Positions 20,113 through 28,105 are shown, counted from the stretch's first letter. The stretch is 64,000 bases of DNA from Nitrospira sp. (GCA_035968315.1 JAVYIN010000007.1:156996-220995); one strand, 5' to 3'. Notes: a model not told the origin generated them from the sequence alone. Program-made: numbers and translations.

Positions 20113-20141
20113 AGGCCGGTCCTCTTTTATCGGGCCGGCCT
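20113..20141. terminator. Hairpin between convergent FGE-like and polB genes
   Basis: A 7-bp stem (AGGCCGG with CCGGCCT) closes a T-rich loop, and T-rich sequence follows on the plus strand. It overlaps the last codons of the polymerase gene on the other strand and could end transcription of the FGE-like gene. Confidence 0.45.
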
Positions 20142-22448
20142 TCTCGATCTCTTTGTTTTCTTCAAGTGATCAAGCTCCATCGGTAGTTCTGGATTCACGC
20201 AGGCGGTTGGCCGACTTGCGTCTTGTTGTAGGTCTTTCGCCGTCACTCCCAGGGGGCTGAGCACAGCCAGCGCCGCTTTATAGAGCAGTGCGGCGTAGGC
20301 CGCTGCATCGTAGCTCCAGGTGCCGTCGAGCCCTGCCACCGCCCGTACGCGATCCGGCGGGCAGGCGGCGTGTGCATCCGTGATGATGTAGTGGATGGTG
20401 TCGCCGGCCTGGAGCGCGATGCCGCGCGCGAGCAATTCCTGAGCGGCAATCATCGAGAGGGTTTGGTGGCGATAGGCCTGCGGCTCTTTCGAGAGGGACT
20501 TTGTGATGGCCAGTTCCTCAATCGTCGCATGGCCCTCGCGGAGATAGCGGTGATAGGCGTGGACGATCTCCAAGGCCTGGGGGACCAGTTTGCGCAACTC
20601 GATTAGCGTGCAGGCCTGGCCCAAGCAGCGCAGCATCTCCGCCTGCGCCCGCTTGACGACCAGCGGCGCATCGCTTCGACGGAGTTCGATGCCCCGTATC
20701 TTCATCCCCCCATGCTCGAAGACGCCGACGAACTGATTCGGCACCGGCATCTTGGGATTCACCCGCGAGGGAAGAAAGCCGATCCAGCGATAGATCCCTT
20801 CCACATTGATGGGCAGTCCCGTTTCCTCCGTGATGACTTGCGCGAGGGCGTCGTACTCGGAGCGCCCCGCACCAGGTTTCACTAGCCAGAGCGAATCGAC
20901 GATGGCGTGGAGCATGCGGTAGCCCTGGCGCTCCGCGATCTCTTTCGCCTGCAGCAAGATATCTCGGCTGTAGGCCGTGACCGATTCGTGCGCTTCGATC
21001 CGGCCAAAGCGGGCATTCTTGTAGCCGAGATAGCCGAAGGACACGACCAACAGCCATTTGAGCGCGGACTGGCGCTGGTCGAGCAGCGCTCTTGCCGCGG
21101 CGTTCACGGTCGCCGCCATCAGGCGCTTGTAACGCGCACGTTTGTCGAGCAACGGTGCCAGGGTTCGAGGCACCAATCCCTGCCGATGGCGGCAGGTGTG
21201 GTGGCCGATTTCCGGCACCCGCGCCGCCGGCTCATCGCGGCAGCAGCGGCAATTCACCGTCTCGGGCGAGACGTTGAAGCGCACCATGATCGAGGGATAC
21301 ATCGAGGAGAAATCCAGCTCGCCGACCTGCTCGTGGTAGCCGATGATCGGCGCAAAGACCAACCCGCCCTGGTCCGTGTGCAGCAATTCGAGTGCAGATT
21401 TGAAGGCTTCCGGCTCCTGCTTGCGATAGGGAATCAGCACACCGTCCCGGCAGGCAGTCTCCAACTGCATCGAGGTGATGCCGGTGCCGGTGGTTGTGCG
21501 GGCCATCTGTTGCAGATCGACTTTCGCCACACGCGCCTGTTCGATCAGGCCGGCGAGTCCCGTTTCAGCGAGCGCAAAGGAGTTCCGTCGATCCAGATGG
21601 AGCCGTCCGGACAGGGTGCGGGCGCCGGCATGCGAGACGATGCGGCCATAGGAAAAATAGGAATGGGCTTTCCTCGATCCGATCGGCCGGCCGCCGTCGC
21701 GGTTGAGCGCGAGCGGGAGCCGCAACTGCTGGGCCATCGTGATGAGACGGGGGAGGAGATAGGAGTCACCCCAATCGGTGAGGAGCAGATCCGGATCATG
21801 CCGAGTGAGAAGCTGATGCAGGCGGCGCACGACGTCGGCGTTATCACCTTCCAGAATTCGTTCGTCGCCATCTATGCGGACGATGAGCGCGCCGCGTCCT
21901 CCGTGATTCGGATTCGGCGAGTCACTCTCCGGCGAGAGTTCCATGACCGTGAGCGGCGCGAGAAGGTAGTCGGTGTCCCAGGGCGACTCCAGCGACTGGA
22001 TCGCGAGAATCCCACCGTCCTTGGTGACGTCAGCCTCGCAAGAGGCCAGGGGAAAGAGCTGGCGGTCGTAGAAGTAGCGTTGCGGGAGGGAGATATCGAT
22101 GTGGAAGAATTGCGCCTCAGGGAAGGTCTCGATCAGCCGGCGAGTCAGAGGGACGAACTGCGCGGGCGAATGAATGGCAACTTCCAGCACGCGCAGAGGA
22201 CGGAGGGCGCCGAGTTCGTAGCGTTCGACGACGCGCTGGTCGATCCGGCAGGAGGCTCGGCAGAGCCAGCGCGTAATCTGATTGCGCAGCGTGGCTGGTG
22301 CAGCCAGATAGCAGGTCGGCACGAACGGGTCGAGGAGACGGTGACGAGTCCCATCCTCGCCGAGGAGCCAGACCACCATGCCGTCCTGTGCCGGGTAGAC
22401 GTCAAGAAGCCACCCCCGGAGTCTGGTTGTCGAGCAAGCGGGCTTCAA
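20127..22448 (-). CDS. Family B DNA polymerase with degraded proofreading motifs
   Basis: 773 residues. Polymerase motifs are present: motif A DFSSMYPSI (catalytic Asp379), motif B region KWLLVVSFGYLGYKNARFG, and motif C as HAIVDSLW, which keeps the second, catalytic Asp (Asp518) but has Ile in place of the first Asp of YxDTDS. The 3'-5' exonuclease is degraded: exo I DxE is SPE (172-174) and exo II lacks its Asn and Asp. Four Cys (400, 402, 403, 419) follow motif A, where eukaryotic Pol epsilon carries an iron-sulfur cluster in its catalytic core. This fits a bacterial PolB group closer to Pol epsilon than to E. coli Pol II. Last gene of a repressor-controlled cassette; probable translesion role. 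Confidence 0.9.
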   Translation of the reverse strand: MKPACSTTRLRGWLLDVYPAQDGMVVWLLGEDGTRHRLLDPFVPTCYLAAPATLRNQITRWLCRASCRIDQRVVERYELGALRPLRVLEVAIHSPAQFVPLTRRLIETFPEAQFFHIDISLPQRYFYDRQLFPLASCEADVTKDGGILAIQSLESPWDTDYLLAPLTVMELSPESDSPNPNHGGRGALIVRIDGDERILEGDNADVVRRLHQLLTRHDPDLLLTDWGDSYLLPRLITMAQQLRLPLALNRDGGRPIGSRKAHSYFSYGRIVSHAGARTLSGRLHLDRRNSFALAETGLAGLIEQARVAKVDLQQMARTTTGTGITSMQLETACRDGVLIPYRKQEPEAFKSALELLHTDQGGLVFAPIIGYHEQVGELDFSSMYPSIMVRFNVSPETVNCRCCRDEPAARVPEIGHHTCRHRQGLVPRTLAPLLDKRARYKRLMAATVNAAARALLDQRQSALKWLLVVSFGYLGYKNARFGRIEAHESVTAYSRDILLQAKEIAERQGYRMLHAIVDSLWLVKPGAGRSEYDALAQVITEETGLPINVEGIYRWIGFLPSRVNPKMPVPNQFVGVFEHGGMKIRGIELRRSDAPLVVKRAQAEMLRCLGQACTLIELRKLVPQALEIVHAYHRYLREGHATIEELAITKSLSKEPQAYRHQTLSMIAAQELLARGIALQAGDTIHYIITDAHAACPPDRVRAVAGLDGTWSYDAAAYAALLYKAALAVLSPLGVTAKDLQQDASRPTACVNPELPMELDHLKKTKRSRRPAR

Positions 22449-22692
22449 GCGTTGTCACTTTCTGTTGCAACGTCATCACGTCTTTGTGTTGTTCGATCAA
22501 CATCGAGAGCAGCATCACCTCAAACGGCGTCTCGCGTGCCAGATAGGCCCCCGCCGGGGCATAGTGGCGGGCGGCGGCAAACAAGGCGTCAAGCGCCTGC
22601 TGGTCTTCGCGTCGCAAGGCCCGCCGGTAGCGGCTCCAGGAGTCGATCTCCTGCTGGAGCAATTGCGTAAACGTGGCAAGAGTGCGGCCCAT
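22402..22692 (-). CDS. Small helical protein of the PolB cassette
   Basis: 96 residues, overlapping the start of the polymerase gene by 47 bases and beginning 3 bases after the RecA-like gene stop, so it is clearly part of the cassette. Predicted almost entirely helical: TLATFTQLLQQEIDSWSRYR, LDALFAAARHYAPAGAYL, then a likely coiled coil QKVTTLEARLLDNQ. I know no family for it. The position suggests a linker or accessory subunit between the RecA-fold protein and the polymerase, a place held by ImuB in imuA-imuB-dnaE2 cassettes; it has no Y-family polymerase sequence. Confidence 0.8.
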   Translation of the reverse strand: MGRTLATFTQLLQQEIDSWSRYRRALRREDQQALDALFAAARHYAPAGAYLARETPFEVMLLSMLIEQHKDVMTLQQKVTTLEARLLDNQTPGVAS

Positions 22693-22695
22693 CGT

Positions 22696-23406
22696 TCATA
22701 ACCTGGCCCATACCGCCCGGGGAATACCCCAGCGCCGTGCCCCGGCGCCACTCCGTTCATCCAGCCAGATCCCGTCTTCGCCCTCGTGTACGTCGATGGC
22801 CCGATGGGCCTGTGCGCGCAGCGTCGTCAAGAACCCGCGGCGCGATGCAGGCGCCGTCACCGGGAGAGGGCTCACGCAGACCAGTTGTACGCCGTCTTTC
22901 ACGAGGTCCCGGAGCGCCGACAGCATCGTGCGAAAGAGCCGCAGCGCTTCCTGTTCAGGCACCGATTGGTCGTAGAGCGTTTCGAGCGGGCCTGAGAGCA
23001 CGACGACCCGCGCATCGTAGGTGCGCAAGGCTGAGGGCAGGCAATCAGTCACGAGCCGGACCATCTGGTGGCAGGTGAAGGCGCGCGATACGTGGATTTG
23101 TTGCAGCACCCGCGCCGGTGCAACGCGGCCGGCCTTTGCCAAACGCCCAACCAGAAACGGATCGAAGACATTGGCTCCGGCCAGGTAGAGCACCGGCTCA
23201 CCGGCCAAGGCGCGATCGACCGCTGCGCAGATCCCCAGTCGATACACGGCGGAATGGCCGGATAGCACCACCAGCCCGTTCGGCGGATCGGCAGGCAGCG
23301 CACTCTTTCGCAGCGCCGCCAGCAGGTGCGACGACGTGCCGATGACGGGCGTGCCCTGGTGAGTCTGTGGCGGGAAATCGAGGAATGGTTGTGTCGCGGT
23401 GGCCAT
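22696..23406 (-). CDS. RecA-fold protein without Walker A motif (ImuA-like by position)
   Basis: 236 residues from the ATG at 23406, which has GAGGTG upstream overlapping the repressor stop codon. The order of elements is that of a RecA core: a strand then the P-loop position (VVLSGHSAVYRLGI, about residues 46-59), LYLAGANVFDPFLVGRLA, a helix-rich part with HVSRAFTCHQMVRLV, and a Walker B-like strand ARVVVLSGPLETLYD. The P-loop GxxxxGKS/T is not conserved, so ATP hydrolysis is unlikely. Resembles degenerate RecA/Rad51 paralogues such as ImuA/SulA-type proteins. Likely links the polymerase to RecA filaments or to the repressor; this is inference. Confidence 0.8.
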   Translation of the reverse strand: MATATQPFLDFPPQTHQGTPVIGTSSHLLAALRKSALPADPPNGLVVLSGHSAVYRLGICAAVDRALAGEPVLYLAGANVFDPFLVGRLAKAGRVAPARVLQQIHVSRAFTCHQMVRLVTDCLPSALRTYDARVVVLSGPLETLYDQSVPEQEALRLFRTMLSALRDLVKDGVQLVCVSPLPVTAPASRRGFLTTLRAQAHRAIDVHEGEDGIWLDERSGAGARRWGIPRAVWARL

Positions 23407-23414
23407 CAATCACC

Positions 23415-23957
23415 TCACGATTCAAAGTGGCGGATCACGCCCGCCACGATGCCTTGAATGCGAAACTCATCGGTGGGCGACACGAGAATCGGTGTCATCG
23501 CCTCATTCGCCGGATGCAATTCGATCCGGCCCTCCGTGCGGTAATATTTCTTGATCGTCGCCTCGTTGTTCACCAGGGCCACCACCGTCTGGCCGTTCCG
23601 CGCGGTGCTCTGCTTCCGCACGACCACCAGATCGCCGGGGAGAATGCCGTCGTCTTTCATCGACTCGCCCTTCACCCGTAGCGCGAAGGTTTCTCCCTGG
23701 CGCAGCAGCGGGGGCAGCACCGACACCAGTTCGGCCTGCGTGATCGGTTCGATCGGCGAACCGGCCGCCACCATCCCGAGCATCGGCAGTTGCGCCGTGC
23801 CCAGTTGATCCAGCGCCATCTCCACCGCCAGCGGCACCTCCCAGGTGCCCGCCTCATAGCGGCTGATCGTCATGCGGCTGAGCTGCAGCGCCTCCGCCAG
23901 CTTTGCCTGCGTGTAGCCCAACCGAACCCGCGCCTGTCTGAACTGTTTGGCTGTCAT
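23415..23957 (-). CDS. LexA-like S24 repressor with XRE (Cro/CI) DNA-binding domain
   Basis: 180 residues. Residues 1-55 form a Cro/CI-type helix-turn-helix (RVRLGYTQAKLAEAL, SRMTISRYEAGTWEVP), unlike the winged helix of standard LexA. The rest is a self-cleaving S24 domain: Ala65-Gly66 cleavage site in MVAAGSPIEP, nucleophile Ser99 in KGESMKDDGI, and general base Lys136 in NEATIKKYY. So it should cleave itself with activated RecA during DNA damage. It heads the cassette and probably represses it. There is no Shine-Dalgarno sequence and the predicted transcription start is at or next to the ATG, as for lambda CI. Confidence 0.93.
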   Translation of the reverse strand: MTAKQFRQARVRLGYTQAKLAEALQLSRMTISRYEAGTWEVPLAVEMALDQLGTAQLPMLGMVAAGSPIEPITQAELVSVLPPLLRQGETFALRVKGESMKDDGILPGDLVVVRKQSTARNGQTVVALVNNEATIKKYYRTEGRIELHPANEAMTPILVSPTDEFRIQGIVAGVIRHFES

Positions 23958-23965
23958 GCCACAAA

Positions 23966-23994
23966 ATGTTACATGCTGAAGCGAAGGCTGTCAA
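23966..23994 (-). promoter_or_regulatory. Promoter and candidate operator of the repressor-PolB cassette
   Basis: On the minus strand TTGACA (23989-23994), 17-base spacer, TAACAT (23966-23971). A dyad ATGTAACAT (23966-23974) overlaps the -10 element and could be an operator for the S24 repressor. The start codon at 23957 lies about where transcription would begin. Confidence 0.6.
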
Positions 23995-25444: not shown

Positions 25445-28105
25445 TTATGGATGCGCCACTCGCCAATTGTGTCCGGTGCCCAGGTCCACTTTGAGCGGGA
25501 CGGAGAGCCCGAGTTGCTTCCCCACATGTTCCATTTCGTGTTTCACCAGCCGCTTCGCGTCGTCCAAGTCCTTCTCCTGCACTTCAAAGATCAATTCGTC
25601 GTGGACCTGGAGGATCATTTTCGTATGCGGCATCTCATGATGCAGGGTCTTATTCACATTGATCATCGCGACCTTGATCAGGTCTGCGGCTGAGCCTTGG
25701 ATGGGGCTGTTCACCGCCATGCGTTCGCCGAAGCCGCGCTGCACGGGATCGCCGCTTTGGAGTTCGGGAATCGGCCGCCGCCGGCCCAGGATGGTGGTGG
25801 TATAGCCCTTGGTTTTGCCCTCTTCGATATTCCGGTCCATCAGAGCCCGCACGCCCGCGTATTTTTCAAAATAGGTTTCGATGTACTTCTTGGCCTCCGC
25901 CTGCGGCACGCCGATGTTCTGCGAGAGGCCGAAGGGGCTGATGCCGTAGACGATGCCGAAGACCACGCTCTTGGCCGCCCGCCGCATCTCGCGGGTGATC
26001 TGCGAAGCGGGGAGATGGAAAATGTCCATGGCGGTCGCCATGTGAATATCTTCGCCTTTCTCGAAGACTTCGAGCAAGCGGGGATCCTGCGACAAATGCG
26101 CGAGGATGCGCGGCTCGATCTGGCTATAGTCGGCGCAGAGGAGAGTGTGGCCCTTCGGCGCGATGAAGGCTTCGCGGATGCGCAGGCCGTAGTCGCCTTT
26201 GACCGGGATGTTTTGCAGATTCGGCTCCGTCGAAGAGAGCCGGCCGGTGGCGGCGACGGTTTGGTTCAGCGACGTGTGCAGCCGCTTGGTCTCCGGATTC
26301 ACCAATTCGGGCAAGGCGTCGACGTAGGTCGATTTGAGTTTGCTCAGGCTGCGATAGTTCAAAATCTGCGCGGGCAGGTCGTGCTGCGTCGCAAGCTGTG
26401 TGAGCGTGTCTTCGTCGGTCGAGTAGCCGGTCTTCGTTTTGCGGCCGGGTTTGAGGCCGAGCTTCTCGAAGAGCACGACGGCTAGCTGTTTGGGTGAATT
26501 GATGTTGAACTCGCCGCCCGCGAGGCCGGCGATAGTCTCCATCATCTTGTCGAGTTCGTGTTCCAGTTCCTTGCTCAGGCCCTGCAAGGCCGGGACATCG
26601 AGCAGGAATCCGTTGCGCTCGATTTCCGCCAGCACTGGGACGAGCGGCATTTCGACATCCTGAAAGAGTGTCAGGCTGCCTTGGCCCATCAGGCGTTCGG
26701 TCATGGCAGGAGCCAGTTTGGCCAGGACGGCGGCCTGCTCCGTGGCCTCTTCGCGTGAGCCGGTGTCTTCGTCGAACAGCGATTGCGGGGCCTTGGCGCC
26801 AGCTTGGTGGGTGCCCAATCGATGGCCGATGGCTTCCATCGCGATGGTATCGAGGCTGTGGTCGCGGCGGTTGGGGTTGAGCAGATAGTCCGCCACCATG
26901 GTATCGAGATAGGGGCCTGCGAGCGTGATGCCGATGCGATGAAAGGCCAGCATGGTGGCTTTCAGATCGTGCACGACTTTGATGTGGGCCCGATCGTGCA
27001 GCACCGCAATGATCGGCCGCATGTAGGCATGGACATCGATTGGGATGTAGGCGGTCTTTCCGCCTGCCGAGAGGGCGATGCCCTTGACGTCTGCCTGAAC
27101 GCTGGGACCGCCGGAGAGCAGGCAGCAGACGCCGAGGGGGCCGTCTTTTGGCAGCGCTGCCACGAAGCGCTGGGCTGAAGGTTCGTCCTGAAGCAATGCC
27201 GATTCGTCGGCCTTGGGATCGGCCGGTGTGGCGCTGGCTTGGAACGTCTTGAGGAGGGTGGTGAATTCCAGTTCGCGCAGCAGGTCGATGAGCTGGTCCT
27301 GATGCGGCGGCTTCACATGAAAGGCTTCCGCATCGAAGGCGATGGGGCTGTGGATGTCGATGGTGGCCAGCTTGCGGCTGAGCCGGGCGTTGTCGGCCTG
27401 TTCGACCAGCAGCGCTTTGATGCGTGGCGGCGTGACGTCGTCGGTGCGCCGGAGCAATTCGTCGATGGTGCCGAACTGGGCGATGAGCTTCATGGCCGTC
27501 TTCTCGCCGATGCCCTTCACGCCGGGAATGTTATCCGTCGCGTCGCCCATCAACCCCATGATCTCGATCACGCGCGCCGGCTCGACGCCGAACTTGGCGA
27601 CACATTCCGCTTCGCCGGACCATTTGTCTTTCACCGGGTCATAGATGCGCACATGCGGCGTGACGAGTTGGAGCATGTCCTTGTCGCCGGTCACGATCAC
27701 GACGTCGTAGCCGGCCTGTTCAGCCTGGTGCGCCAGCGTGCCGATGAGATCATCCGCCTCATAGCCGGCCTGCTTCACCGCCGGAATGTTCAGCGCTTCC
27801 ACCACGCGATGGATATAGGGGATCTGCGCGCTCATGCCTTTCGGCATCGGAGGGCGCTGGGCTTTGTAGTCTTTGAACTCCTGATGGCGGAGGGTCGGCC
27901 CCTTTTCGTCGAAGGCCACGACGATCCCGTCCGGCTGCCGCTCCCTCAGGATCTTCAACAGGGTGGTGGTGAACCCATAGACGGCGTTGGTGTGCAGGCC
28001 CTTGGAATTGTTCAGGGGCGGGAGGGCGAAGAAGGCGCGATAGATATAGGCGCTCCCGTCGATCAGGTAGAGCGTCTTGCGGTTGGAGTCAGGCATAGGC
28101 GTCAC
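25445..28105 (-). CDS. polA: DNA polymerase I
   Basis: 886 residues from GTG 28105 (ATG 28096 is an alternative). The 5' nuclease domain occupies about 1-290 (LYLIDGSAYIYRAFFALPP, VVAFDEKGPTLR, IPGVKGIGEKTA). A 3'-5' exonuclease-like domain follows to about 490 but its metal ligands are gone: the DxE motif position reads GVCCLLSGG and the NxxxD motif reads HDLKAT. The polymerase domain has motif A DYSQIEPRILAHLSQD, the O-helix RRAAKSVVFGIVYG and motif C QVHDELIFE. So nick translation and gap filling are expected without proofreading. Starts 3 bases after the PGPGW protein gene. Confidence 0.97.
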   Translation of the reverse strand: MTPMPDSNRKTLYLIDGSAYIYRAFFALPPLNNSKGLHTNAVYGFTTTLLKILRERQPDGIVVAFDEKGPTLRHQEFKDYKAQRPPMPKGMSAQIPYIHRVVEALNIPAVKQAGYEADDLIGTLAHQAEQAGYDVVIVTGDKDMLQLVTPHVRIYDPVKDKWSGEAECVAKFGVEPARVIEIMGLMGDATDNIPGVKGIGEKTAMKLIAQFGTIDELLRRTDDVTPPRIKALLVEQADNARLSRKLATIDIHSPIAFDAEAFHVKPPHQDQLIDLLRELEFTTLLKTFQASATPADPKADESALLQDEPSAQRFVAALPKDGPLGVCCLLSGGPSVQADVKGIALSAGGKTAYIPIDVHAYMRPIIAVLHDRAHIKVVHDLKATMLAFHRIGITLAGPYLDTMVADYLLNPNRRDHSLDTIAMEAIGHRLGTHQAGAKAPQSLFDEDTGSREEATEQAAVLAKLAPAMTERLMGQGSLTLFQDVEMPLVPVLAEIERNGFLLDVPALQGLSKELEHELDKMMETIAGLAGGEFNINSPKQLAVVLFEKLGLKPGRKTKTGYSTDEDTLTQLATQHDLPAQILNYRSLSKLKSTYVDALPELVNPETKRLHTSLNQTVAATGRLSSTEPNLQNIPVKGDYGLRIREAFIAPKGHTLLCADYSQIEPRILAHLSQDPRLLEVFEKGEDIHMATAMDIFHLPASQITREMRRAAKSVVFGIVYGISPFGLSQNIGVPQAEAKKYIETYFEKYAGVRALMDRNIEEGKTKGYTTTILGRRRPIPELQSGDPVQRGFGERMAVNSPIQGSAADLIKVAMINVNKTLHHEMPHTKMILQVHDELIFEVQEKDLDDAKRLVKHEMEHVGKQLGLSVPLKVDLGTGHNWRVAHP

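Follow-up and report, generated by a model that had tools for sequence, protein, structure and literature searches.

A predicted lexA-iRadA-arCOG07300-PolB2 operon, for which a function in the damage response was proposed, has been described in Leptospirillum ferriphilum (LFML04_0990-0993), alongside a three-gene operon of archaea and bacteria (Makarova et al. 2014, PMC4104785). In 2025, the PolB2 mutasome was modelled as a heteropentamer, with a PPB2 trimer beside PolB2 and iRadA (Timinskas et al., PMC11791011). In that study, high-confidence models of the PolB2–PPB2–iRadA complex were obtained for 40 species, with PPB2 as a trimer whose N-terminal arm enters the PolB2–iRadA cleft, while the bacterial genes follow the order iRadA-PPB2-PolB2, with lexA enriched nearby. 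The bacterial group is listed as G2/PolB2 in a 2026 survey (PMC12926913). Experiments on Sulfolobus showed that Dpo2 is a damage-inducible extender that is solely responsible for targeted mutagenesis (PMC7390963, PMC8764526). In the open-licence literature, we found no expression, mutagenesis, binding or damage-induction study of any bacterial PolB2.

Here we analysed a window of 64,000 nucleotides from Nitrospira sp. (GCA_035968315.1 JAVYIN010000007.1:156996-220995). The original prediction made on this DNA was put forward in the belief that no system of the composition of its four-gene cassette had been described. That belief is contradicted by the 2014 report on Leptospirillum (PMC4104785) and by the 2025 work on the PolB2 mutasome (PMC11791011).

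Organisation of the operon

The cassette lies in a Nitrospira-type genome of 3.1 Mb, which is 99.97% complete. It is made up of four minus-strand genes coding, in this order, for a repressor, iRadA, PPB2 and PolB2. The features are listed below from the promoter onwards, with positions in the window.

23989..23994, minus strand: -35 box TTGACA, conserved in every close relative and throughout the repressor family of the genus
23966..23971, minus strand: likely -10 element TAACAT, inferred, inside the operator, 17 bases from the -35 box and conserved in position
23957..23973, minus strand: putative operator TGTAACATTTTGTGGCA, overlapping the -10 element and reaching the start codon (TGTAAC-N5-GTNACA in relatives)
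23415..23957, minus strand: XRE-HTH and S24 self-cleaving repressor (non-canonical LexA), 180 aa; Pfam/NCBIfam matches and PDB match to LexA
22696..23406, minus strand: iRadA, RadA/Rad51 fold without P-loop, 236 aa, ATG at 23406; profile and AlphaFold/Foldseek matches
22402..22692, minus strand: PPB2 (arCOG07300), 96 aa, MGRT start; profile–profile match
20127..22448, minus strand: PolB2 DNA polymerase (bacterial G2 group), 773 aa, TTG start; domain models and motif alignment

The coordinates agree with the close spacing originally noted for these genes: a gap of 8 bases separates the repressor stop from the iRadA start, 3 bases lie between iRadA and PPB2, and the PolB2 start, a TTG that is kept in close relatives, overlaps PPB2 by 47 bases. 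The interval first outlined for the cassette ended at 23994, which is the outer edge of the conserved -35 box. Just upstream of the cassette, as likewise in some relatives, lies polA, coding for DNA polymerase I (window 25445-28105).

A gene order not conserved outside this genome had been named as one of the outcomes that would refute the original prediction. When checked, the order repressor-iRadA-PPB2-PolB2 was found to be kept in at least 10 other Nitrospirota genomes, and the arrangement is therefore not due to chance.

The polymerase and its two partner proteins

The fourth gene had been read as coding for a family-B polymerase whose exonuclease motifs are lost, and both parts of this reading hold. 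Its product matches the DNA_pol_B domain (4.5e-38) and the archaeal type B polymerase model NF004416 (3e-118), and, aligned over about 94% of its length, has 30-32% identity to haloarchaeal PolB2. In an alignment with archaeal, phage and bacterial relatives, the motif A Asp (D379), the motif B Lys (K464) and, in motif C, the second Asp (D518) are invariant. Motif C reads AIVDS (515-519), the first Asp of the DxD being replaced, and the exonuclease motifs are unrecognisable in the same alignment. The Asp of the D(K/R) loop is conserved (D286-R287). The AlphaFold model of PolB2, with a pLDDT of 44, was discarded.

Evidence of several kinds agrees with the RecA fold without P-loop that had been proposed for the second gene. 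The iRadA profile, built with 18 relatives, matches RadA/Rad51/DMC1 structures in the PDB (E = 6.7e-9), the same proteins are the top PDB matches in Foldseek for its AlphaFold model (pLDDT 79), and the Walker A motif GxxxxGK[ST] is absent from its sequence. The RAFTxxQ motif of iRadA is common to archaeal and phage iRadA, and profile–profile comparison with the haloarchaeal operon protein gave a homology probability of 94%. The third gene product, originally taken for an unknown and new small protein, turned out to be PPB2/arCOG07300, since its profile matches that of haloarchaeal PPB2 with 99.6% probability in hhalign (E = 3.2e-24). Its 96 aa compare with an expected length of about 90, it starts with MGRT and it is predicted to be helical. 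Single PPB2 or iRadA sequences met no usable family in Pfam or NCBIfam, and the matches were obtained with profiles built from relatives. Inspected by eye, the C-termini of iRadA and PolB2 show no clear QLxLF-like beta-clamp motif, a feature that is optional and present in a fraction of members.

The iRadA, PPB2 and PolB2 genes occur together on haloarchaeal plasmids too. The full three-gene cassette is also carried by Leptospira phages and related viral contigs (L062 3219-6979, L063 3189-7701, L070/L071 2198-5972), in which a SRAP-like gene follows directly or shortly after. PPB2 is annotated in these cassettes as a stub of 43-55 aa, and its open frame starts with MGRT. On another viral contig (L067 2690-5385), PPB2 and PolB2 adjoin phage-like genes. 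The 2025 PolB2 study kept only bacterial and archaeal sequences (PMC11791011).

The repressor, its promoter and its putative operator

The product of the first gene matches Peptidase_S24 (6e-30) and HTH_3 (2e-8), and a PDB search aligned the C-terminal half of the protein with the C-terminal domain of E. coli LexA (E = 2.6e-22). In this alignment the self-cleavage residues Ala65-Gly66, Ser99 and Lys136 are all in place, in line with the self-cleaving S24 repressor that had been predicted, and the S24 domain passes the score cut-off of the LexA model. The DNA-binding domain is an XRE HTH and not the winged-helix PF01726, and LexA_DNA_bind (PF01726) has no match in the whole genome to which the window belongs. 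In two deeper relatives (L020 and L032), a LexA with a winged-helix-like N-terminus stands at the same place, with a PF01726 match in the genome of L020. As far as our searches show, it is new that the Nitrospira operon is headed by a CI-like (XRE) S24 repressor and not by a winged-helix LexA; we found nothing specific on the SOS response of Nitrospira in the open-licence literature, and earlier work on the repressor may exist.

When relatives were compared, the block TTGACA-N14-TGTAAC-N5-GTNACA, up to the repressor start codon, proved to be nearly invariant, with about 15 invariant bases at the operator, while the remaining upstream region has diverged. The window's own copy of the operator, TGTAACATTTTGTGGCA, is imperfect. 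Exact matches to the palindrome in 10 genomes fall almost only at repressor promoters. In the window's genome, allowing at most one mismatch, the operator pattern has 4 forward and 5 reverse matches, whereas the reversed control pattern has 13 and 17, and matches in promoter position occur only at the two repressor genes. The site is absent from the recA stretch examined, and a global regulon, sought with the operator pattern in this genome and in the 10-genome search, was not found. Since the matches are nearly confined to repressor promoters and stay below the control count, the repressor seems dedicated to its own operon. A plain count of palindromes upstream of the start codon (at least 5 of 6 pairs) gave 30/42 real and 35/126 control windows; the two are separated only modestly, so that the operator argument rests on position and shared sequence. 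To the extent of our searches, this conserved promoter, with a TGTAAC-N5-GTNACA palindrome that would lie over the -10 element up to the start codon, is likewise new.

Distribution and relation to ImuB-DnaE2 cassettes

Counted by domain matches and their distance, and not by full annotation of each locus, in a sample of relatives of which many are incomplete, the cassette is patchy in the genus, being present in 6 of 35 genomes (one copy is split over two contigs). Two further genomes, G025 and G026, carry decayed PolB2 cassettes in which the repressor is still intact. The cassette is therefore dispensable. The decayed copies (L021 6824-8471 and L022 7051-8180), each beside an intact repressor gene, show frame breaks in one case and a lost PPB2 start with a truncated PolB2 in the other.

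Across the genus, 15 Y-family/DnaE2 cassettes and 8 PolB2 cassettes, 2 of the latter decayed, have an S24 gene at their head, and the repressors compared from both cassette kinds belong to one XRE-S24 family. Many repressors of DnaE2 cassettes have TGTAACATTTTGTTACA at the place where the window has TGTAACATTTTGTGGCA. That nearly the same promoter heads the ImuB-DnaE2 cassettes of sister species is also new as far as our searches show. In an unrooted tree, nine PolB2-heading repressors, including that of the window, form a clade grouping with DnaE2-heading ones (99/94), and four other PolB2-adjacent repressors (two with decayed cassettes) fall inside an orphan group; PolB2 cassettes are thus found under two repressor lineages. 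Strict exclusivity of PolB2 and DnaE2 was considered and is ruled out by genome G030, which carries both.

In G030, a DUF72-like gene (assigned by eye) follows the repressor-ImuB-DnaE2 cassette (L044 9034-9987); DUF72 is reported as enriched near polB2 in the 2025 study (PMC11791011). Besides the repressor of the cassette, the window's genome contains an orphan one of that repressor family (L042 6045-6590; G000:C5:804044-804589), which has a perfect TGTAACCATTGGTTACA promoter site and lies near molybdate-type ABC transporter genes, and similar orphan repressors occur across the genus. A search for PolB2 cassette remnants beside three orphan repressors (G000, G014 and G022) found none.

As regards the polymerase content of the host, neither the Pfam search nor a DinB protein search detected a Y-family polymerase in the window's genome; there is a single DnaE, no DnaE2 and no B-family polymerase besides PolB2. 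One clear RecA is present. Among the Y, DnaE2 and B types, which the search covered, the PolB2 cassette is the only lesion-bypass polymerase set found in the host genome, and this polymerase content is a further point that is new as far as our searches show.

Proposed mechanism and alternative explanations

Considered as a whole, the cassette is very probably a bacterial PolB2 translesion-synthesis operon, derepressed by damage and assembling a proofreading-free extender complex. In undamaged cells, the XRE-S24 repressor would occupy the palindrome over the -10 element and the start codon and keep its own four-gene transcript off. From what is known of the family, RecA filaments formed on damaged DNA would then lead the repressor to cut itself at Ala65-Gly66, switching the operon on. 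By analogy with the Sulfolobus experiments and the published models, PolB2 would assemble with one iRadA and a PPB2 trimer, docking on iRadA as a RadA protomer does on its neighbour, with the MGRT arm of one PPB2 entering the cleft near the DNA. Such a complex could extend mismatched or lesion-blocked primer ends without proofreading, resulting in damage tolerance and induced mutations.

The original prediction had described an analogue of the ImuA-ImuB-DnaE2 mutasome. Its claim to novelty has to be dropped, while the idea of a mutasome built on an exonuclease-dead PolB with a RecA-fold and a small partner is supported. Direct support for the analogy comes from sister species, whose ImuB-DnaE2 cassettes are led by repressors of this family with almost the same operator. 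The notion that PPB2 stands in the place of ImuB holds only loosely: PPB2 has been modelled as a trimer with an arm and is not a polymerase relative.

The loss of the first DxD Asp and of the exonuclease motifs might alternatively mean that PolB2 is catalytically dead and that the iRadA–PPB2–PolB2 complex is structural or regulatory, with a task such as the clearing of stalled forks or the control of when replication starts; inactivation or replication-related roles were put forward in papers from 2008 and 2014, first for archaeal PolB2. This is quite improbable, given that three motif residues (the Asp of motif A, the Lys of motif B and the second Asp of motif C) do not vary between haloarchaea and the window's genome, and that Sulfolobus Dpo2, in which the DxD has undergone the same change, works as an extender to which targeted mutagenesis is solely due (PMC7390963, PMC8764526). 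It also seems unlikely that the repressor is a general SOS regulator, with the polymerase operon as one of many targets and one output of a normal global SOS response. An S24 domain above the LexA model cut-off, in a genome without a LexA DNA-binding domain, would suit such a role, but operator matches fewer than those of the reversed control, promoter-position matches at two repressor genes only, a recA stretch without a site and the presence of a second, orphan repressor of the family all speak against it.

Leptospira phages and viral contigs bearing iRadA-PPB2-PolB2, haloarchaeal copies on plasmids, and flanking genes that differ between most Nitrospira species raise the question of whether the cassette travels with mobile DNA, either phage or plasmid, and serves the replication or repair of that element and not host mutagenesis. 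In the window, however, the cassette is flanked by ordinary genes of the chromosome (polA, PilZ, FGE-like), the closest relative retains the entire neighbourhood, and promoter and operator are conserved across species, which makes a mobile passenger very unlikely.

We tentatively propose, with slightly less than even confidence, that mutasomes in Nitrospira are interchangeable under a single autoregulated XRE-S24 promoter module, which carries PolB2-iRadA-PPB2 or ImuB-DnaE2 depending on the species, and that here an archaeal-derived PolB2 complex may have become the sole damage-induced translesion machine. If this is true, the bacterium may rely wholly on a B-family mutasome. The shared promoter predicts that the same repressor family would release PolB2 or DnaE2 after damage, and a host without Y-family, DnaE2 or other B-family polymerases offers a clean place to ask whether an archaeal-type complex alone carries damage-induced mutagenesis.

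Comparison with known systems

The Leptospirillum ferriphilum operon is composed of the same four gene families as the window; its repressor, compared by the name lexA given in the paper, differs from the XRE/CI-type domain found in the window and in the genus. With the PolB2 mutasome (PMC11791011), the window has in common the gene order, the MGRT start, the dead RadA fold, the changed DxD, the lost exonuclease and the adjacent repressor, whereas the window proteins show, by eye, no clear C-terminal clamp motif. Sulfolobus islandicus Dpo2 is a member of the same polymerase group with associated iRadA and PPB2 genes, but it is archaeal, is without a LexA-type repressor and has a different clamp.

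On the side of the regulator, canonical LexA has the S24 domain, the Ala-Gly site and the Ser/Lys dyad in common with the Nitrospira repressor, and differs in its winged-helix PF01726, in place of which the latter has an XRE HTH. Non-canonical LexA/HdiR-type S24 repressors likewise combine a CI-like HTH with S24 and control error-prone polymerases (PMC8565304). The Bacteroidetes non-canonical LexA family was reported to be exclusive to that phylum (PMC8565304), and the Nitrospira family and its palindrome are distinct from it.

Finally, lexA-imuA-imuB-dnaE2 works in a similar way: a repressor leads an operon in which an error-prone polymerase is joined by a RecA-fold partner and an accessory protein. 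Its polymerase is of the C-family and its bridge is an inactive Y-family protein, whereas the window has a PolB; PPB2 is not homologous to ImuB, nor PolB2 to DnaE2. Within the genus, the ImuB-DnaE2 cassette is led by a repressor of the family that heads the PolB2 operon, with an operator almost identical to the one found there.
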